A stretch of DNA of 64,000 bases from Pseudoalteromonas holothuriae (GTDB lineage Bacteria; Pseudomonadota; Gammaproteobacteria; Enterobacterales; Alteromonadaceae). The translations under genes and the position numbers were made by a program. The notes under the pieces were generated by a model. It did not search any database and was not told where the DNA came from. It saw only the letters and a list, made by a program, of their open reading frames with translations. Location: the NCBI RefSeq assembly GCF_945859825.1, contig NZ_CAMAPC010000002.1:186001-250000 (forward strand), read 5' to 3'. Below are positions 38,004-46,853 of this stretch, piece after piece (positions within the stretch are counted from its first letter, which is position 1; every line of letters starts with the position of its first letter).

Positions 38004-38022
38004 AATAATATTGATTGTCATT
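38004..38022. promoter_or_regulatory. Weak candidate Fur box
   Basis: AATAATATTGATTGTCATT matches 11 of 19 positions of the classical Fur consensus. It lies about 70 bp before the DUF4856 lipoprotein gene of a metal-uptake-like operon. The match is too modest to be sure. Confidence 0.3.
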
Positions 38023-38090
38023 TAGATATGTGTATACTTTCACTCCAGATAAGAAATACAAATATTAATTATTTTCAAAGGAAATCATTG

Positions 38091-39845
38091 ATGGTTTTAC
38101 GAAAGTCTCTTCTGGCCACTTCTATTGTAGTTGCAACATTGGGTTTAACCGCGTGTGGCGGTTCAAGTTCAAGCAGTAACGATTCAAATAATAATGGTGA
38201 TAATGGCACGGTTACCACGCCTACCAACTCAGCACCAACAGCGATTGCATTAACAGCACAAGCGCAAGTAAATGAAAACGTAGCGGGTCAAGTTATTGGT
38301 ACTTTAGCTGCAACAGATGCTGACTCGGATGAAACATTCACATTTACCACTGCTGATGAGCGTTTTCTGATTGATGCAACATCTTTAGTACTTAAGCCAT
38401 CAGTTATTTTAAACTTTGAAGCCGAGCCACAAGTATCTGTTGATGTAACTGTCACAGACAGTGCCAACAATACGTTCTCTGCTGCTGTGACATTTGATGT
38501 AACTGATGCAAAAGATTATGACTTTTTAAATGCTGAATCAGGTGATTCAAGCGTATCTTACTCAGGCCAAATTGCACGTCATGCGCTAATTAAAGAATTG
38601 TATAACTATATTGGTGGTGACTTAGCAACTGATGCACAGACCATGACTGCCGATGCATTACTTGCGCAATTAAACAAGTTTTATAAAATTTCAGATGGCG
38701 ACTATGATGCCATCGCAAATGCTATGTCATTATCAATCGTACAAGATGCAAAACAAGCAACACTGGCTGACATTTCAGGAAGCCATAAAGACTTAAGCGG
38801 TAAAATTGCAGGTAATGATGCAACGGGCCAACACAAAGATTGGAACGATGGTGCAAGTTTTGAAGGGTGGGCTGGTCTTGAAATAAACACGCCTGAAGGG
38901 TTAATGAACGCTTTAATTGCACAAGTTGTAGAGCGTGTGCAGCAAACTACTGTACAAACGCCAAATGGTAAAGAAATAGAAACGCATTACGTAACCGCTG
39001 AGGGTGTTGACCTTAAACAGTTAACGCAAAAGTTTTTATATGGTGCGGTGGCATTTTCTCAAGGTGCTGATGATTACCTAGATGATGCAACACAGGGCAA
39101 AGGACTTAAAACCAGTAACATTCTCGACGATAAAGCATATACAAACCTTGAGCATCAATGGGATGAAGGTTTTGGTTACTTTGGTGCTGCTCGTAACTAC
39201 CTAAGTTACACAGATGAAGAAGTAGCCGCTAAAGGCGGTCGTGAAAACTGGCAAGGGAACAACGACTTTAATGCTGATGGCAAAATTGATTTAAATGCTG
39301 AGTACAATTTTGGCAACTCTACCAATGCAGCGAAGCGTGATTTAGGCTCTAAAGACTATGATGCAAAAACTGACTACAGTGCAGATGCCTTTAATGCATT
39401 TTTTGCCGGTCGTAAGTTAATTTCTGATAATGTAGGCACTGAGCTTACTGATGAGCAGTTAACTGAACTTAAAGGCTATGCAGTTGCTGCAACGGCAGCA
39501 TGGGAAAAGTCTATCTCAGCCACAGTTGTTCACTACATTAATGATACCATCGCTGATCTGGAACAGATGAAAGTGGGTACCTATGAAGCTGATAAGTTTG
39601 TAACATTAGCTAAGCACTGGTCTGAAATGAAAGGCTTTGCACTTAATTTGCAATTTAACCCAGAATCACCTTTCAATGCAGAGGCAAATGCGGGTAAATT
39701 TGCGCAAATGCATGTGTTAATGGGTAACAAGCCAGTAGTGGGTGAACAGGCGGACGTAGAAGCTTATATTGTTGAGCTTAAGCAAGCGCGTGATATTTTA
39801 CAGCAAGTTTATAGCTTTGACGGTGAAGTCGTTACTAACTGGTAA
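38091..39845 (+). CDS. DUF4856-family lipoprotein with cadherin-like N-domain
   Basis: A 584-residue predicted surface or periplasmic lipoprotein: lipobox LTACG (Cys22), then a Ser/Asn/Gly-rich linker. A cadherin-like domain at about 45-140 follows (APTAIALTAQAQVNENVAGQ, IGTLAATDADSDETFTF). The rest matches the DUF4856 family (YSGQIARHALIKELYNYIGG, FGYFGAARNYL). In marine bacteria these proteins are commonly encoded beside imelysin-like proteins and TonB receptors, as here. ATG 38091 has AAAGGA about 9 bp upstream; a TTG or other upstream start at 38028 is rejected. It probably takes part in metal or iron uptake, by context only. Confidence 0.82.
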   Translation: MVLRKSLLATSIVVATLGLTACGGSSSSSNDSNNNGDNGTVTTPTNSAPTAIALTAQAQVNENVAGQVIGTLAATDADSDETFTFTTADERFLIDATSLVLKPSVILNFEAEPQVSVDVTVTDSANNTFSAAVTFDVTDAKDYDFLNAESGDSSVSYSGQIARHALIKELYNYIGGDLATDAQTMTADALLAQLNKFYKISDGDYDAIANAMSLSIVQDAKQATLADISGSHKDLSGKIAGNDATGQHKDWNDGASFEGWAGLEINTPEGLMNALIAQVVERVQQTTVQTPNGKEIETHYVTAEGVDLKQLTQKFLYGAVAFSQGADDYLDDATQGKGLKTSNILDDKAYTNLEHQWDEGFGYFGAARNYLSYTDEEVAAKGGRENWQGNNDFNADGKIDLNAEYNFGNSTNAAKRDLGSKDYDAKTDYSADAFNAFFAGRKLISDNVGTELTDEQLTELKGYAVAATAAWEKSISATVVHYINDTIADLEQMKVGTYEADKFVTLAKHWSEMKGFALNLQFNPESPFNAEANAGKFAQMHVLMGNKPVVGEQADVEAYIVELKQARDILQQVYSFDGEVVTNW

Positions 39846-39867
39846 TTTACTCACAGATAAACTATCA

Positions 39868-39898
39868 AAAAGGTTAGCTTTTCGAGGCTAGCCTTTTG
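39868..39898 (+). terminator. Intra-operon hairpin terminator or attenuator
   Basis: AAAGGTTAGC (39869-39878) and GCTAGCCTTT (39887-39896) around an 8-nt loop, followed by TGTT. It separates the DUF4856 gene from the imelysin-like gene and may lower expression of the latter and of the receptor. Confidence 0.65.
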
Positions 39899-39931
39899 TT
39901 GTATTTAAAATCGAATAAAAAGAGGCGATTG

Positions 39932-41200
39932 ATGGCACCAACATTTAAACCTTTATTGTTAGCAAGCACTTTAGCTGCATTGCTAAGCGGTTGTGGTGAG
40001 AGTACCTCAAGCTCAACCGGCGAGAACTTTTCTGACAGCAAAGACAATGGCACTATTAGCTTTGATCAACAAGCGTTGTTAGTGAGCTTAACCGATAATG
40101 TAATTACGCCAACCTTTGAAGCATTTGCAAACAAGGCGCAATCTTTACCTGCACAAGTTAAAGCGTACTGTGATTTAGAAACGAGTTTTGACCCAAGCAT
40201 GCAAGATGAAGCCCAAAAAGCTGCAAGGGATGAAGCAAAGCTAGCTGCACAAGACGCATGGCGTGAAACAATGGTTAGCTGGCAACATGCTGAGTTGATG
40301 GTCGTTGGTCCGCTTTTAGAGAACGACAAGTCATTGCGTAATGACATTTACTCTTGGCCCAATGCCAGCACCTGTAGTGTTGACCAAGATGTGGTGTTTT
40401 TTGAGCAAGGTATGATTAATGGTGTTGCTTATAACATTCGTAACCGTTCAGACAAACGTCGTGGTTTAGATGCCAGTGAGTATTTGTTGTTTAACGATGA
40501 GTTGGCTTATAGCTGTAGCAGTGTTGCCGCAGGTGACATTTTAGCTAATTGGAATACTCGCGATGAGCAATCACGCAAAGTGGCGCGTTGTCAATTTGCA
40601 GTAGAAGTTGCTAATGATTTAAGTCACTCTGCGCAAACGTTATTAAATCAGTGGAGTGGTGAGCAAGGCTACAGTGAGGTATTAAAAACAGCGGGCCAAC
40701 CGGGTAATAAATTTGAAACGCAAACAAAAGCCATCAATGAAATCTCCGATGCATTGTTTTATATGACCGAAGAACTCAAAGACTACAAATTGGCGACGCC
40801 ACTTGGCTTATTTGCTAATAGCTGCGGCTTAGAAGCTTGCCCGCAAGCGGTGGAGTCTGTGTATGCTAAGCACTCTATTGAGAATATAAAAGCCAATATT
40901 ACCGCATTTGAGCAACTGTTTTTAGGTGGTAATGGTGATGCAGCCGCAACTGGGTTTGATGATTTCTTAGATGAACAACAAGCCTCAGATACAAAGCAAG
41001 TTATGTTACAAGGTATTGCTGATGCTAAGGTGGCTGTTAATGCGCTGGAAGGTAATTTGCAAACCACGTTGGTTAATGACCAAGCGGCTGTGACTAATAC
41101 ACATGAAAAAGTAAAAGTAGTGACCGATCAACTTAAAAATGATTTTATTAATAAGCTTGCACTAGAACTTCCAAAAACGTCGGCAGGTGATAATGACTAA
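39932..41200 (+). CDS. Imelysin-family (M75-like) lipoprotein
   Basis: A 422-residue predicted lipoprotein (lipobox LLSGC, Cys21) with a helical imelysin-like fold. Family segments are WRETMVSWQHAELMVVGPL (HxxE within WQHAE), the helix FFEQGMINGVAYNIRNRSDK and RGLDASEYLLF. Imelysin-like proteins such as EfeO-M75 and IrpA are tied to iron transport. I see no evidence that it acts as a peptidase. Start: ATG 39932 with AGAGG upstream, rather than the TTG-initiated form at 39896. The TonB receptor gene starts 10 bp downstream. Confidence 0.85.
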   Translation: MAPTFKPLLLASTLAALLSGCGESTSSSTGENFSDSKDNGTISFDQQALLVSLTDNVITPTFEAFANKAQSLPAQVKAYCDLETSFDPSMQDEAQKAARDEAKLAAQDAWRETMVSWQHAELMVVGPLLENDKSLRNDIYSWPNASTCSVDQDVVFFEQGMINGVAYNIRNRSDKRRGLDASEYLLFNDELAYSCSSVAAGDILANWNTRDEQSRKVARCQFAVEVANDLSHSAQTLLNQWSGEQGYSEVLKTAGQPGNKFETQTKAINEISDALFYMTEELKDYKLATPLGLFANSCGLEACPQAVESVYAKHSIENIKANITAFEQLFLGGNGDAAATGFDDFLDEQQASDTKQVMLQGIADAKVAVNALEGNLQTTLVNDQAAVTNTHEKVKVVTDQLKNDFINKLALELPKTSAGDND

Positions 41201-41210
41201 AGGGCCTTTT

Positions 41211-43418
41211 ATGCAAAAATCTTTGTTAGCTTTGGCAGTAGCAGTTGCTATGCCAAATGCATTCGCAGCTGATAGTGACGATGAATTAGAGCATATTCAA
41301 ATACTCAGTCACTATGACAAACTACGTACTGAAGCGGGCTCTGCAACATTGATAAGTGAAGAGCAACTAGAAAAATACGAATACGATGATATTCATCGTA
41401 TTTTAGCCTCCGTACCGGGTGTGAACATTCGTGAAGAGGATGGCTATGGTTTGCGCCCTAACATCGGCTTTCGAGGTGTAACCCCTGAGCGTAGTAAGAA
41501 AATTACAATTCTAGAAGATGGTGTATTGATTGGCCCTTCGCCTTATTCAGCGCCAGCAGCTTACTATTTTCCAGTCACGACCCGTATGACTGCGGTGGAG
41601 GTCTTTAAAGGGCCTGCCGCGATTAAATATGGACCACAAACTGTTGCAGGCACCATTAATTTAGTGACGCGTAAAATCCCTGAGTTTAATGAAGGTGGTA
41701 TAGATGTGTCGGCAGGGAGTGATGGCTATCAAAAAGCCCACGGCTACTTTGGGTCTGTTGTTAACAATGTTGGGTTTTTACTTGAAGGCGTAAATCTAAA
41801 AGCCGATGGTTTTAAAGACCTTGACGGTGGTGGTGATACCGGATTCAACAAAAACGATATTCTGGCCAAGTTTAACTACAAGATGCGTTCAAATGGCTTT
41901 GATCATACCTTTGCACTTAAGCTGTCTTACTCTGATGAGCAATCAGATGAAACTTATTTAGGTTTGACGGATGCTGACTTTGCAAGTACGCCATATCGGC
42001 GTTACGCAGCATCGCAAGATGCTTTAATGGATACTGAACATCAACAAGTGATGTTTTCACATTACTTAGAAAATGATGATATTAAAGTAACGTCACGTAT
42101 TTACCGTAACGATTATGAGCGAGCGTGGCGTAAGCTAAATAACTTAACGAATACGAGTGGTTCTTTATCATCTATTTTGGCGAACCCGACTAAGTATGCG
42201 GATGAATATGGTGTTATTTCAGGCCAGCAAGATTCGGTACAGGCAGGCCGTAGCTCAATCTTTTTAACCATGGGCACTAACGACCGCGAATACTTTTCAC
42301 AAGGTATACAAGTGGATGCGTCAATTAAGTTCAAGTTGTTTGACTTAGACCATAAGCTCGCTGTGGGTGTACGTTATCATGAAGATGAAATTGAGCGTAA
42401 GCACTTTGAGCAGACGTATGCGATGAGTTCAGGCCGTGCTCAAAATACCGGCCAAGCTAAAGCATTTACCACTTTAGATACCGAAGCAACTGATGCTTGG
42501 TCGGTGTATATGGAAGATCAAATTACCTTAGATGCGTTAACACTGGGTATAGGTGTACGCGGTGAATTGATGGATATGCATTACCAAAACAACAAAGATG
42601 CACTAGATTGGCAAGATAAAACAACGCGTATTTGGATGCCAGGTATCAGTGGCTTTTATAAGCTATCAGATGAGTCGGGGTTACTGTTTGGTGTACACCA
42701 AGGTTTTGTGCCATCGTCACCCGCTCAAACAGAGGATATTAAACTTGAAAAAAGTGTGAACTATGAGTTTGGCGGTCGCTTTAATGACGGTATTACTCAG
42801 TTTGAGTTAGTTAGCTTTTACAATGATTATAGTAATTTAAAAGAAAGTTGTAGTCAGTCGAACTGTGGTATTGATTCACAAATAGACCAAGAGTTCAACG
42901 GTGGAGCAGTGGATGTATACGGAGTTGAGGCTCAGTTCTCACAAAGCTACCCGTTAAGTTTGCATTTAGAAGTTCCTTATGGCTTTGTTTACACTTACAC
43001 CAAAAGTGAATTTCAGCATGATTTGCGCTCTGAGTTCGCCCAGTGGGGAGAGGTTAAAAAAGGCGATGAACTGCCTTATTTGCCTAACCACCAAGCAACC
43101 TTTAATATTGGTTTAGTAGCGAAAGATTGGCAGTTATCTATGGCCGTGAAGTATGTTAGCTCAATGCCTGAAGCTGCAGGAGTAAGCTGGCAAGATACAA
43201 ACATTGGGACAACGGTTAATATTCCGCTTGCAGGCGAACAAGTGCCTTCAAATGTGACTGTTGACTTGTCAGCAAGTTACGAGTTAAGTGAGTATGGCCG
43301 TATTTATGCCAAAGTAGATAACCTTCTTGATGAAAATGAAGTGGTTAGCCGTCGTCCGTATGGTGCGCGCCCGGGCAAACCTCGTCAACTTTCTTTAGGA
43401 TATAAATATCAGTTTTAA
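41211..43418 (+). CDS. TonB-dependent receptor, FecA-like
   Basis: A 735-residue outer membrane receptor that would import a ferric chelate or other nutrient using TonB energy. Signal peptide (ending AFA) at 1-19; possible TonB box ELEHIQILS; plug domain at about 40-170 (EKYEYDDIHRILASVPGVNI, GLRPNIGFRGVTPERSKKIT, VEVFKGPAAIKYGPQTVAGT); beta-barrel to the C-terminal aromatic YKYQF. No N-terminal signalling extension is present, so it is not a FecA-type transducer. Start: ATG 41211 with AAAGGG 7 bp upstream; earlier starts at 41187 and 41193 overlap the imelysin gene. Substrate is unknown; iron citrate-like chelates are one guess. Confidence 0.92.
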   Translation: MQKSLLALAVAVAMPNAFAADSDDELEHIQILSHYDKLRTEAGSATLISEEQLEKYEYDDIHRILASVPGVNIREEDGYGLRPNIGFRGVTPERSKKITILEDGVLIGPSPYSAPAAYYFPVTTRMTAVEVFKGPAAIKYGPQTVAGTINLVTRKIPEFNEGGIDVSAGSDGYQKAHGYFGSVVNNVGFLLEGVNLKADGFKDLDGGGDTGFNKNDILAKFNYKMRSNGFDHTFALKLSYSDEQSDETYLGLTDADFASTPYRRYAASQDALMDTEHQQVMFSHYLENDDIKVTSRIYRNDYERAWRKLNNLTNTSGSLSSILANPTKYADEYGVISGQQDSVQAGRSSIFLTMGTNDREYFSQGIQVDASIKFKLFDLDHKLAVGVRYHEDEIERKHFEQTYAMSSGRAQNTGQAKAFTTLDTEATDAWSVYMEDQITLDALTLGIGVRGELMDMHYQNNKDALDWQDKTTRIWMPGISGFYKLSDESGLLFGVHQGFVPSSPAQTEDIKLEKSVNYEFGGRFNDGITQFELVSFYNDYSNLKESCSQSNCGIDSQIDQEFNGGAVDVYGVEAQFSQSYPLSLHLEVPYGFVYTYTKSEFQHDLRSEFAQWGEVKKGDELPYLPNHQATFNIGLVAKDWQLSMAVKYVSSMPEAAGVSWQDTNIGTTVNIPLAGEQVPSNVTVDLSASYELSEYGRIYAKVDNLLDENEVVSRRPYGARPGKPRQLSLGYKYQF

Positions 43419-43447
43419 TGACTGTGCTGATTACCTAGGGATAAATT

Positions 43448-43472
43448 AAGGGTCACTCAGTAGGCCCTTTTT
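43448..43472 (+). terminator. Weak hairpin after the TonB receptor gene
   Basis: AAGGG and CCCTT flank a 12-nt loop, followed by TTTTAG. Readthrough into the hydroxylase-family gene at 43485 seems likely. Confidence 0.45.
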
Positions 43473-43484
43473 TAGAGGTATACT

Positions 43485-44477
43485 ATGTTAGAACAAATGT
43501 GGCAGAGTTTTATTTCTTTGCCCAATTATTTGCTCGATGCGAATAAGCGCATTTATATTCCCTATCTATTAACTGCAATCGTGATGGCAGTACCTGTGTA
43601 TTTTGCCGCGCAAGCTCAGCGTTCGCTACGTGGTTTTTTGGCATTTTTGTTACCTAAAAAAGTATGGTTATGTAAAAGTGCAAAGCTGGATTATTGTTTA
43701 CTGATCACAAATGTTTTGTTGAAGGCGGCGTTATTTACGCCGATTGTACTGACTATGGTGCCTGTGGCCATTGCGACTACAGATATTTTAGAGTGGGGAT
43801 TTGGCCAGCCCTTGCATCTGGCTTGGTCAGACACTGCGGTGATAGCGATATTTACGGTGATGCTGTTTATTGTTGATGATTTGACTCGGTTTTTGTTGCA
43901 CTTATTACTACATAAAGTGCCCTTCCTTTGGGAATTTCATAAAGTACATCATTCAGCAAAGGTATTAACGCCGTTTACTATTTATCGGTCACACCCTGTT
44001 GAAAGCTATCTCTACGCATGCAGGATGGCACTCACGCAAGGCTTAGTGGTTGGGTTTGGCTATCATTTTTTTGGTACAGGGCTAAGTATGTTTGACATTC
44101 TGGGTGCCAATGCATTCGTTTTCTTATTTAATATCTTTGGGGCTAACTTACGCCACTCTCATATTCGCTTTAGCTGGGGCGATAAGCTAGAAGGTTGGCT
44201 AATTAGTCCGGCACAACATCAAATACATCACAGCGATAACCCTAAGCATTTTGACACTAATTTGGGGTCTGCACTGGCTATTTGGGATAGAATGTATGGT
44301 TCTTTAATTAAGGCATCTGCTGCACCCAATATCAATATTGGTGTAGGCCGATATGATGCTGGGCACGATTCAGTAGCCGCGATTTACCTCAAACCTTTTA
44401 GGCAAGCATTTATGACGTTGTTAGGTAAAAAGTCTATGGTGAAACCGCCAATAAATAAGCTTGATAATGAACGTTAG
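43485..44477 (+). CDS. Fatty-acid-hydroxylase / sterol-desaturase family membrane protein
   Basis: A 330-residue integral membrane di-iron enzyme of the fatty acid hydroxylase superfamily. The histidine clusters that bind the metals are visible: HLLLH (HxxxH), HKVHHS (HxxHH), HSHI and HQIHHS. Four to five hydrophobic segments precede and surround them. It would hydroxylate or desaturate a lipid; the substrate cannot be read from sequence. It lies 66 bp after the TonB receptor gene on the same strand, which may tie it to the same operon. Its end overlaps a convergent DUF3820 gene by 4 bp. Confidence 0.88.
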   Translation: MLEQMWQSFISLPNYLLDANKRIYIPYLLTAIVMAVPVYFAAQAQRSLRGFLAFLLPKKVWLCKSAKLDYCLLITNVLLKAALFTPIVLTMVPVAIATTDILEWGFGQPLHLAWSDTAVIAIFTVMLFIVDDLTRFLLHLLLHKVPFLWEFHKVHHSAKVLTPFTIYRSHPVESYLYACRMALTQGLVVGFGYHFFGTGLSMFDILGANAFVFLFNIFGANLRHSHIRFSWGDKLEGWLISPAQHQIHHSDNPKHFDTNLGSALAIWDRMYGSLIKASAAPNINIGVGRYDAGHDSVAAIYLKPFRQAFMTLLGKKSMVKPPINKLDNER

Positions 44478-44692
44478 TCATGTTTTAAAAGTGGCATCAA
44501 CATTTTTTCTAGACCATTGAGTTTTACTTCGTAAATCATAGCGAGCTGCTCACCAAGTTTGCCTTGAGGAAAGCCTTGTTGTTTAAACCAAACAACATAA
44601 GGTTCGGGAAGTAACAATAAGGGCATACCGGCATGTTTTCCAAATGGCATTTTTGTATTCACGGCTTCAACGAGTGCTTGTTGGTTATGCAT
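44474..44692 (-). CDS. DUF3820-family small protein
   Basis: A 72-residue protein of the DUF3820 family, recognised by MPFGKHAGMPLLLLPEPYVV, WFKQQGFPQGKLGEQLA and IYEVKLNGLE. Function is unknown. It is cytoplasmic, with no signal or membrane segment. Its stop overlaps the stop of the convergent hydroxylase-family gene. The 57-nt palindrome begins 43 bp upstream of its start. Confidence 0.88.
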   Translation of the reverse strand: MHNQQALVEAVNTKMPFGKHAGMPLLLLPEPYVVWFKQQGFPQGKLGEQLAMIYEVKLNGLEKMLMPLLKHD

Positions 44693-44734: not shown

Positions 44735-44791
44735 TAATGCCTAGAGTATCGATCAGATTAAAATTTAATCTGATCGATACTCTAGGCATTA
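44735..44791. repeat. 57-nt near-perfect palindrome
   Basis: Twenty-eight bases starting TAATGCCTAGAGTATC are followed, after one unpaired central A, by their exact reverse complement, ending GATACTCTAGGCATTA. The centre is AAAATTT. An immediately overlapping second hairpin follows at 44789-44824. Confidence 0.9.
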
Positions 44792-44834: not shown

Positions 44835-46853
44835 TTAAAAGCGCCAGTTTATATTGCTCCATAAGGTCAAACCGGCTTCATTCACTTTGTCTATTTGCTG
44901 ATAGCCACTCACGGCCGAGCCTGATTTACTTAAATGTTGTGCATAAATTTTATCAAACAAGTTATCTACGCCCATGCTCCAATCAACACCTTTTGATAGG
45001 TTATATTGTGCGTTTAACGATAAAGTACCATAGCCACTTGTGGGTGTTATATCTTGTCCTGCGATATTGCCTTGCGCCGGTGCAACCCGATGCTGAGCTG
45101 CCGCCACGTGCCAAAGCATGCCAACTCGCCATGTTTTTTGTTCATAATCTAGTGTGACGCGCATTTGTAAAGGAGGCTGTTGTGCTAACGCAATATGGTC
45201 CGTGAGGTTGCTACCGCGAACATAACTGAAGCTTGCTGCTGCTTGCCAATATTTGGTTAAGTGATAATTAATATCGGCCTCAAAGCCAAGTGTTTCAGCA
45301 TCAATATTGCGTGTTACTTTACGTTGCATAGCCACTTGCCCATAAGCGTTGTCAGTTAAAATAAAATCACTGATACGGTTGTAAAATAGTGATACGTTAC
45401 TTTGCCACTGAGTACTTGCGTGTTGTATACCGAAATCTAGTTGGTTTGTTTTCTCTACATTAGTATTAAATGCACTGCTACTATTTATGGCCATACGGTT
45501 GCCACCAAGTAACTCCCAGTAGTCAGGAAATCGTTCGGTATGGCCAAAGCCAATAAAGTAACTGCGATTTTCGCTCTGTTGAGCATAGCGAGTAAAACCA
45601 CTCCATAAGGTGTCTTTACGAGTTGTATTGGCTGTTGGGTTAGGTGCTTTTTTCATCATCATGGTAATTTGTTGCCGCAAGTCTTTCGCTTGCCAACGAT
45701 CAATACGCAGGCCAGATATAATCTGTTGATGCTCACCAAGAGATAACTCATGTTCGCCAAAAAGACCTAACTTTTTAAATTCGCCATCGGTTTTACGCGG
45801 CATGAGTTGTACTGGGTTGTTGAGCTGGTTCATGCTGCTTCGATTTCTATGGCGGTCTTGCAGATGATCTAAGCCAAATTTTAATGTATTGGACGTATTA
45901 AGTTGAGCATCAAAGACTATTTTACCACCTTGAGAGCGCCTGTCTGGGTTGGCGGATGTTGGCAGCTTCATCATCATGTTGGGTTTAAATTGGCGTAAAC
46001 TGTGATTGTCCATGATGTGATCGACATCGTTGTAATACCACTGTGCATCAAGATGGTTGATGACGCCTATGCTAAGTGCCCATTGTGCACGAATTGCGCC
46101 GTGGGTTCTATCAAATAAGCTACCGTCCATCATACGATCCGCATAGGCAACTTCACCATCGCTGCGGCCATAAGTTAGGCTAATAATGTTATCATCACTC
46201 GGAGTGTAGGCAAGCTCCATATCGCCGTTCCAGCGTTTGTAATTAGAGTGGATAGTGGTGTTGTTTCCATCTTGGTAGTCACCCGCACGGCTGTGGCTAC
46301 CTGCAACACGAAAATAATAATCAGGCGTACCCGCTTTGATATCAACATTGATGCTACGACGCTCAGCACTGGCAACAACTGCATTGGCAAAACCTTGGAG
46401 TTGAGGTTTTTGTAACCGTTGTTGGTTACGCTCAAAAATAACGGTAGCGGCACTGTTTCCCGAACCGTAAAGTACCGTCTGTGGGCCTTTAATAACGGTT
46501 AGTGTGTCATACGTTTGAGGGGTAATGTAAGCGGTAGGTGGGTCCATTCTAGAACCACATCCCCCTAATGTTAATCCACCATCGGTAATAATATTTAAAC
46601 GTGAACCTGCCATGCCCCTAAAAACGGGGTCGCTACTTGCGGCTCCCTTTTTGATAAGAGAAAACCCAGTAATGCTTGATAACAAGTCTGCACCATCCTG
46701 AGCGGGAAGGGGTTGCCTTGGAAGTTTTGGGTCAGTTTGTAACAATAAAGGCGATTGCATGGGTGCTATTACCACAATGTGCTCTAGTTCATCTTCATCA
46801 GCCATACACTGCAAGGCACTAAGCAAAGCAACACTAAGCAGAGTTATTTTCAT
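44835..46853 (-). CDS. TonB-dependent copper receptor (OprC/NosA type)
   Basis: A 672-residue outer membrane receptor. The plug carries LGGCGSRMDPPTAY, the hallmark of copper receptors; in Pseudomonas OprC the Cys and Met of this CxxxM motif bind copper. A downstream HIM fits the second copper-binding HxM. Met-rich segments (KPNMMMKLP, QITMMMKKAP) also appear. Signal peptide ends CMA. The barrel closes with SNINWRF. It stands alone on the minus strand. A role in copper uptake follows from the family. Confidence 0.9.
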   Translation of the reverse strand: MKITLLSVALLSALQCMADEDELEHIVVIAPMQSPLLLQTDPKLPRQPLPAQDGADLLSSITGFSLIKKGAASSDPVFRGMAGSRLNIITDGGLTLGGCGSRMDPPTAYITPQTYDTLTVIKGPQTVLYGSGNSAATVIFERNQQRLQKPQLQGFANAVVASAERRSINVDIKAGTPDYYFRVAGSHSRAGDYQDGNNTTIHSNYKRWNGDMELAYTPSDDNIISLTYGRSDGEVAYADRMMDGSLFDRTHGAIRAQWALSIGVINHLDAQWYYNDVDHIMDNHSLRQFKPNMMMKLPTSANPDRRSQGGKIVFDAQLNTSNTLKFGLDHLQDRHRNRSSMNQLNNPVQLMPRKTDGEFKKLGLFGEHELSLGEHQQIISGLRIDRWQAKDLRQQITMMMKKAPNPTANTTRKDTLWSGFTRYAQQSENRSYFIGFGHTERFPDYWELLGGNRMAINSSSAFNTNVEKTNQLDFGIQHASTQWQSNVSLFYNRISDFILTDNAYGQVAMQRKVTRNIDAETLGFEADINYHLTKYWQAAASFSYVRGSNLTDHIALAQQPPLQMRVTLDYEQKTWRVGMLWHVAAAQHRVAPAQGNIAGQDITPTSGYGTLSLNAQYNLSKGVDWSMGVDNLFDKIYAQHLSKSGSAVSGYQQIDKVNEAGLTLWSNINWRF

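Follow-up and report, generated by a model that had tools for sequence, protein, structure and literature searches.

The window analysed here is a stretch of 64,000 nucleotides (nt) from Pseudoalteromonas holothuriae (assembly GCF_945859825.1, contig NZ_CAMAPC010000002.1, positions 186,001 to 250,000). It contains a forward-strand locus of four genes for a DUF4856 lipoprotein, an imelysin-family lipoprotein, a TonB-dependent receptor and a membrane protein of the di-iron hydroxylase family. The association of this hydroxylase with its three neighbours, and with ferric-iron uptake, is the subject of this analysis. The elements of the locus are listed below in window coordinates.

38004-38022, forward strand: candidate operator of the Fur type (AATAATATTGATTGTCATT); a promoter-like site at 38011-38038 overlaps it
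38091-39845, forward strand: DUF4856 lipoprotein, with a lipobox, a cadherin-like domain and then a helical PF16148 domain
39868-39897, forward strand: terminator-like hairpin in the DUF4856/imelysin spacer, probably a partial terminator judging by folding and conservation
39932-41200, forward strand: imelysin-family (PF09375, by Pfam) lipoprotein, with GLDASE instead of GxHxxE
41211-43418, forward strand: TonB-dependent receptor that lacks an N-terminal signalling domain of the FecA type; FecA is its closest relative of solved structure
43449-43468, forward strand: terminator-like hairpin in the receptor/hydroxylase spacer (-8.2 kcal/mol), with a T-run after it
43485-44477, forward strand: membrane di-iron hydroxylase-family protein (PF04116), assigned to an iron-associated subfamily by Pfam, tree and neighbours

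The family calls made for these genes in an earlier note on this DNA hold in Pfam (PF16148, PF09375, TonB receptor and PF04116), as do the two spacings that it reported. Spacers within the block are 86, 10 and 66 nt; the imelysin stop at 41200 lies 10 nt before the receptor ATG at 41211, and the receptor stop at 43418 lies 66 nt before the hydroxylase ATG at 43485. The DUF4856 gene most likely starts at the ATG at 38091 instead of position 38028 of the open reading frame list because orthologues align from there, and the imelysin gene most likely starts at the ATG at 39932 and not at the TTG at 39896. Both lipoproteins have a lipobox that can be recognized by eye (LTAC, LSGC). Gene order around the locus is ilvC on the reverse strand, ilvY and the four genes of the locus on the forward strand, and then convergent PF12843 and OprC-type genes; ilvC was identified by eye from its translation, and ilvY exceeds its own NCBIfam cut-off.

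Distribution, neighbours and fusions of the hydroxylase

PF16148, the DUF4856 family, is present in 64 of 108 Pseudoalteromonas genomes, and a protein search places a hydroxylase orthologue (60-100% identity) in exactly those 64. The best hydroxylase match in the other 44 genomes is no stronger than 5.6e-18 among the matches listed, except in G069, and G087 has none. The G069 case is a hydroxylase fragment with 57% identity and a stop (L209, G069:C17:27541-27906, 4.1e-44) in a genome without DUF4856, and it may be a remnant of a lost locus. DUF4856 and hydroxylase lie on one contig and one strand in 63 of the 64 genomes, where the two domain matches are 4099-4530 nt apart; in the 64th they are split between contigs. 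The order DUF4856-imelysin-receptor-hydroxylase recurs in all 40 genus regions examined, which were taken from the 62 other genomes with both genes on one contig and strand, with broken members in two (the hydroxylase in L050, the receptor in L062). Upstream neighbours vary, with the ilvY side found in 25/40 regions and unrelated genes in the others, so the block has stayed together in different places. The earlier note had taken a hydroxylase gene not kept beside the other three in related genomes as the mark of an unrelated neighbour; it is kept in every DUF4856-bearing genome of the genus (64/64) and in the same order throughout the regions examined (40/40).

The association extends beyond the genus. 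When relatives are collected from DUF4856, 21 of 24 assessable genomes outside the genus carry the hydroxylase; this tally drops L087 and L095 (contig ends), counts G609 as present with the two genes at the ends of different contigs, and counts L093 as absent although just 1.4 kb remains past its receptor. PF16148 was found in 19/295 genomes of the order sample, with 17 non-genus regions, of which 12 show the complete four-gene order, one (L089) reads DUF4856-hydroxylase-FutA-FutB-FutC, and two (L081 and L093) have no hydroxylase in the fetched region. In the class sample it was found in 6/321 genomes, four of them new, with the hydroxylase in G452, G693 and G609 and not in G485, and in the phylum sample in 10/398 genomes, five of them new, in all five of which the hydroxylase adjoins or follows DUF4856. 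The hydroxylase-less locus L109 has, between imelysin and receptor (L109:3769-5594), genes for an HTTM/vitamin K-dependent gamma-carboxylase-like protein and a DCC1-like thiol oxidoreductase. In this one case, a different membrane enzyme that uses oxygen may substitute for the hydroxylase.

Collection from the hydroxylase gives a similar picture. A hydroxylase profile at 1e-30 or better matches 12/321 genomes of the class sample, and eight of these loci (own genome, G113, G452, G410, G509, G548, G609 and G693) contain imelysin, DUF4856, DHOR or FutA/FutB genes. A further set of 80 named loci comprises the best 80 of at least 588 relatives (at least 595 stretches), ranked by likeness to the enzyme of L101. 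Iron genes were found in them with home-made profiles, of which the second-round ones included hits from the same loci. Imelysin, DUF4856, DHOR, FutA or FutB occurs within 9 kb of, or fused to, the hydroxylase in 66/80 named loci, including one (L160) scored solely via a FutB several kb off on the opposite strand. Such a gene or a receptor is directly adjacent (within 300 nt on the same strand) or fused in 62/80. Receptors were scored only in this adjacency count, and generic ABC ATPase (FutC-like) matches, present in at least 8/19 control regions, were not scored as iron genes in loci or controls. Those controls are other PF04116 paralogs from one genus, Pseudoalteromonas (L190-L208; 20 fetched, with fragment L209 set aside), and none of the 19 has a listed iron gene in regions of 10.7-15 kb. 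Fisher's test of 66/80 against 0/19 gives p = 7.6e-12, which is only a guide because the controls come from one genus and their regions do not reach the length of those around the named loci (up to 19 kb). The tallies are not independent, with some named loci belonging to the same genomes as loci of other samples.

Several gene layouts recur around the enzyme. The first is that of the window. The second is DUF4856-hydroxylase, often with FutABC behind (Neptuniibacter, Endobugula and the Osedax symbiont Rs1), with a variant in which Fut genes lie around the hydroxylase on either strand (SAR116, SAR324 and some Rhodobacteraceae). The third is imelysin-DHOR-imelysin-hydroxylase, followed by a MauG-type gene in 5/6 cases (Campylobacterota and a Bathymodiolus symbiont). 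The first layout is combined with Fut genes in L096, L116 and L132, and ExbB, ExbD and TonB genes follow the four-gene set in L101. The FutA identification is firm for L089, with matches of 2.9e-109 to 6g7n and 7.2e-103 to 2pt1. The window's own genome carries FutABC on contig 14, so that the inner-membrane importer could act in trans, and an imelysin-DHOR-DHOR-imelysin-DUF1513 cluster on contig 11, where no hydroxylase occurs in the 18 kb read. A separate observation concerns L102, whose layout has two imelysins and DHOR: a multicopper oxidase gene (L102:9644-11371) directly follows the hydroxylase and precedes FutC, FutA and FutB.

The hydroxylase tree agrees with these neighbourhoods. Iron-linked hydroxylases group in a single clade (73 rows, support 100/98); 66 of these rows, including the window enzyme, have iron neighbours, and in a sister group of nine rows eight lack them. 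Control PF04116 paralogs are placed outside the clade. Some long branches in this tree were flagged, mainly among controls, and eight rows have odd composition.

Natural gene fusions join the enzyme to iron-binding proteins. Hydroxylase and FutA occupy one open frame of 668-790 codons in nine genomes (named loci L118, L127, L140, L161, L172, L173, L184 and L186, plus L218; the L184 fusion has a masked stretch inside FutA), and hydroxylase and imelysin share one open frame in L130. Pfam confirms both halves in L118 and L130. A hydrophobic stretch between the fused parts resembles a retained export signal of the second part, which suggests that the enzyme end is probably cytoplasmic and that the iron-binding part is outside; the fusion product may be cut by signal peptidase. 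In the tree, L186 (Bdellovibrionota) is widely separated from the alphaproteobacterial group, so the fusion probably arose at least twice.

The earlier proposal that the four genes belong together, with the hydroxylase as a real partner, is therefore supported by the genus-wide co-occurrence, the contrast between named and control loci, and the fusions. We regard coupling of the hydroxylase to ferric-iron uptake as very probable. That it is an unrelated neighbour retained by shared descent is hardly credible: a terminator-like hairpin before the hydroxylase gene in the window and a few solitary homologues would fit such a history, but the 64/64 co-occurrence, the empty paralog controls, the gene order shared with other genera and phyla whose flanks differ, and the fusions all speak against it.

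Operator and hairpins

The best of three matches in the window to the Vibrio-type Fur pattern AATGANAATNATTNTCATT is the site at 38004-38022, with two mismatches; 1.22 matches at three or fewer mismatches are expected by chance. No window match to the E. coli Fur 19-mer was found at three or fewer mismatches, and the site agrees with the E. coli consensus at 13/19 positions. Relatives give a stronger signal. Upstream of DUF4856, 23/105 regions (22/102 without duplicates) match the E. coli Fur box at 15/19 or better, compared with 14/2100 shuffles and 1/161 upstream regions of other mechanically called frames, and 12 of the 23 matches lie 80-105 nt ahead of the DUF4856 start. Alignment of 13 upstream regions from several genera has a common block near AATGATATTGATTATCATT. 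The Fur candidate that the earlier note placed at 38004 thus stands as a site conserved across genera, while its own score in the window is weak. The locus is probably Fur-controlled, as predicted from these upstream regions. As a separate observation, a gene for an OmpR-type DNA-binding protein lies just upstream of DUF4856 in some relatives (L041:9295-9990 and L063:1686-2924, the latter with a histidine kinase); this protein cluster occurs in 25/57 fetched loci, among them 24/40 of the genus, and the window spacer lacks it.

The earlier note also listed an intra-operon hairpin at 39868, which proves to be real and conserved. A hairpin like 39868-39897 occurs in 49/53 loci with 43 distinct stems, compared with 0-2/53 in each of four shuffles; the shape has thus been kept while the letters change. 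This fits a partial terminator, which would give more DUF4856 protein than receptor. A second hairpin, at about 43449-43468 in the 66-nt spacer, was not listed by the hairpin scan or mentioned in that note. Hairpins precede the hydroxylase in 33/46 loci with spacers of 20-400 nt and in 0-2/46 in each of four shuffles. The receptor-hydroxylase spacer is just 10-15 nt in six related loci, and the corresponding two reading frames of L216 share one base. Together, the short spacers, the overlap and the recurring hairpins favour a predicted single operon with attenuation.

The iron link that was made earlier is strengthened by FutA/FutB, imelysin and DHOR neighbours, by the FutA fusions and by the Fur-type site. 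That the locus serves copper or zinc instead is very unlikely. An OprC-type copper receptor gene adjoins it convergently, and a Zur-like gene (159 bits, cut-off 167) lies upstream in one related genus, but FutABC-type ferric importer genes occur in some of the same operons, FutA is fused to the hydroxylase, the operators are of Fur type, and the copper receptor is found beside the locus in only 5/40 genus regions, at their edge, with regions extending only 2.5 kb beyond the hydroxylase. The copper receptor (44835-46853, reverse strand; TIGR01778, 682 bits against a cut-off of 472) is a separate gene. The Zur-like gene (L084:10448-11378) precedes the locus together with a CheX gene in seven regions.

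Proteins of the locus and a candidate pathway

The hydroxylase matches FA_hydroxylase PF04116 at 2.2e-21 (77.1 bits, curated cut-off 31). H139, H143, H152, H155, H156, H170, H245, H248 and H249 are invariant in 80 hydroxylase sequences, and H224 is kept in at least 90%. The structure model is confident, with a predicted local distance difference test (pLDDT) score of 93, and its best match in the PDB is the Scs7p hydroxylase domain (Z 4.8, root-mean-square deviation 5.0), followed by matches at Z 2.8; sequence searches of the PDB with the hydroxylase found no relative. Kept histidine motifs, a confident model and the Scs7p match make a catalytic di-iron hydroxylase the default reading. Action of this putative oxygenase on a lipid or acyl ligand is, in our estimation, an even call.

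Two other views of the enzyme have to be weighed. In the first, it remodels membrane lipids, such as an aminolipid or an acyl chain of lipid A, as part of a general response to low iron; it would not touch the iron carriers directly and would share only Fur control with its neighbours. The sole NCBIfam family with which it registers is the OlsE model NF052566, at 53.8 bits and far below the cut-off of 475, and the best fold match is a fatty-acid hydroxylase. Open-frame fusions to FutA in nine genomes and to imelysin in one suggest a closer link, and adjacency across several distinct iron layouts suggests more than shared regulation, which leaves this view rather unlikely. In the second, the di-iron site acts on iron or its ligand, and oxidises, reduces or strips the ferric complex from FutA or imelysin. 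Fusions to iron-binding proteins and redox partners in other layouts (the DHOR di-haem protein, a MauG-type peroxidase and the multicopper oxidase of L102) are in keeping with such a role. Known PF04116 enzymes have lipid or hydrocarbon substrates and a cytosolic active site, and the signal-like stretch between enzyme and FutA also puts the enzyme end probably in the cytosol; both argue against direct action on the iron complex, which we consider unlikely.

Among the other proteins, the DUF4856 protein has a PF16148 match of 4.1e-14 and a weak cadherin-like domain match. Its helical domain is modelled with pLDDT 91 and keeps an H-x-x-D-E-G-x-G-Y-F-G-type motif, and H334, D337, E338, E383 and E491 (mature numbering) are invariant across 50 sequences, which is a possible metal site. 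Searches of PDB sequences with a DUF4856 profile found no relative and returned just the cadherin part and chance matches; fold searches returned cadherin-like domain matches, which filled the lists. In an hhalign comparison with imelysin the lipoprotein signal was the sole matched part. DUF4856 proteins of the second layout are shorter, e.g., 466 amino acids without a Pfam cadherin match in L143:7449-8846, and the cadherin-like region is missing in the alignment from that of L089. The imelysin-family protein is well supported by PF09375 (5.8e-30; 105.3 bits, curated cut-off 23.5). GxHxxE is the metal motif typical of imelysins, and the window protein has GLDASE where the canonical rows of L102, L105 and L103 carry GYHAIE or GVHAVE. 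The receptor has TonB barrel (7.8e-33) and plug (7.3e-15) matches in Pfam, and FecA is its nearest solved structure by sequence (3.6e-29). It reaches 130.6 bits with the NCBIfam FecA equivalog, far under the cut-off of 1100, and lacks the FecA signalling domain (the best stretch runs from query residue 41 and chain residue 110 or 133), so its ligand cannot be read off.

We interpret the locus as probably, though by no means securely, a Fur-repressed ferric-iron uptake system with a dedicated inner-membrane di-iron hydroxylase. Iron starvation would relieve Fur repression. DUF4856 and imelysin lipoproteins would bind ferric iron or a ferric chelate, with DUF4856 in excess through the 39868 hairpin, and the FecA-like receptor would move iron across the outer membrane on TonB energy. 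A FutABC-type importer, whose genes lie on another contig here and within the locus in some relatives, would then move it across the inner membrane, which is the direction of flow that we infer. Coupled to the periplasmic iron-binding proteins, the inner-membrane hydroxylase would use oxygen, and its most likely substrate, at which we can only guess, would be either a membrane lipid or the fatty portion of an iron ligand. Hydroxylation might help iron to be handed over or released at that membrane. A wider and more doubtful proposal is that a membrane di-iron oxygenase subfamily is a core and hitherto undescribed part of FutA/imelysin ferric uptake in several phyla. Its members would be in physical association with the iron-binding protein and would hydroxylate or break the ligand or lipid carrier of the delivered complex for iron entry; we offer this tentatively.

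Several points weigh against this interpretation. It is odd that an iron enzyme should be made during iron starvation, and this argues for a special or non-catalytic role. The structural match to Scs7p is weak at the values given above, and Foldseek with the hydroxylase model found no match at E 0.001 or better. The hydroxylase is missing from 3/24 DUF4856 loci outside the genus (L081, L093 and L109), and iron genes are missing around 4/12 class-sample hydroxylases, all weaker matches (G401, G428, G491 and G578, the last at a contig end). No listed iron gene lies near 14/80 named enzymes; these include L131 and L164, which are solitary copies and close relatives of iron-linked enzymes, L115, which is right behind a receptor, and L135 and L183, which are on contigs of less than 4 kb. 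A terminator-like hairpin precedes the hydroxylase gene in the window, and the window imelysin lacks GxHxxE, so its metal binding is not assured. Finally, the window operator is weaker than those of many relatives. One published study (PMC7536154) gives the Vibrio Fur consensus as AATGATAATAATTATCATT, from which the site differs at 4/19 positions (4, 8, 10 and 14), and reports that a double change at A14 and C16 weakens binding by a Vibrio-type Fur; A14 is among the deviations of the window site.

Comparison with known systems places the locus within ferric-iron uptake of a known kind, with the membrane hydroxylase as the new element and with a strong genetic link between them. FutABC/FbpABC-type ferric importers share operons with the hydroxylase in a number of relatives, and FutABC is present in the window's own genome; what differs is the hydroxylase, which in several lineages neighbours FutA or is fused to it. 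To our knowledge, no membrane hydroxylase belongs to known FutABC/FbpABC importers. Imelysin iron clusters (imelysin, DHOR and DUF1513) share the imelysin lipoprotein with the locus, and some hydroxylases lie inside imelysin-DHOR-imelysin clusters, whereas the window locus differs from these clusters and from EfeUOB in having no DHOR, DUF1513, EfeU or EfeB; no EfeU permease or EfeB peroxidase family was found among the seven locus and flanking proteins scanned. FecA, the ferric citrate receptor, is the closest solved receptor and differs in its score and signalling domain. OlsE and Scs7p share the PF04116 family, histidine motifs and predicted fold with the window enzyme, which differs in belonging to an iron-tied clade set apart from genus paralogs (OlsE and Scs7p are outside the tree sampling). 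In open-access full-text literature we found no description of a hydroxylase paired with imelysin/Fut iron uptake, which does not imply absence from print. Within that literature, no paper was found on DUF4856, none linking imelysins to fatty acid hydroxylases or to sterol desaturases, and none placing an imelysin in a gene cluster with EfeO and a hydroxylase. Nothing on topic, judged by the listing, joined FutA and iron to a fatty acid hydroxylase, and no title among papers on sterol desaturases, Fur and marine iron uptake was of this kind.

Imelysin and FutABC-type ferric uptake are widespread, and neither the imelysin mechanism nor ferric release at the inner membrane is settled. An oxygen-using enzyme that co-occurs with and is fused to ferric-uptake proteins is a concrete candidate for a missing step. 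DUF4856 gains a likely context, and one subclade of proteins annotated as "fatty acid hydroxylase" or "sterol desaturase" becomes tied to a pathway.

Downstream flank

Two features lie just beyond the locus. A 72-amino-acid PF12843 protein is encoded on the reverse strand at 44474-44692, and its gene and that of the hydroxylase overlap end to end by a few bases. Between this gene and that of the copper receptor, a long hairpin at 44740-44786 (20 pairs counted) is terminator-like on the reverse strand.

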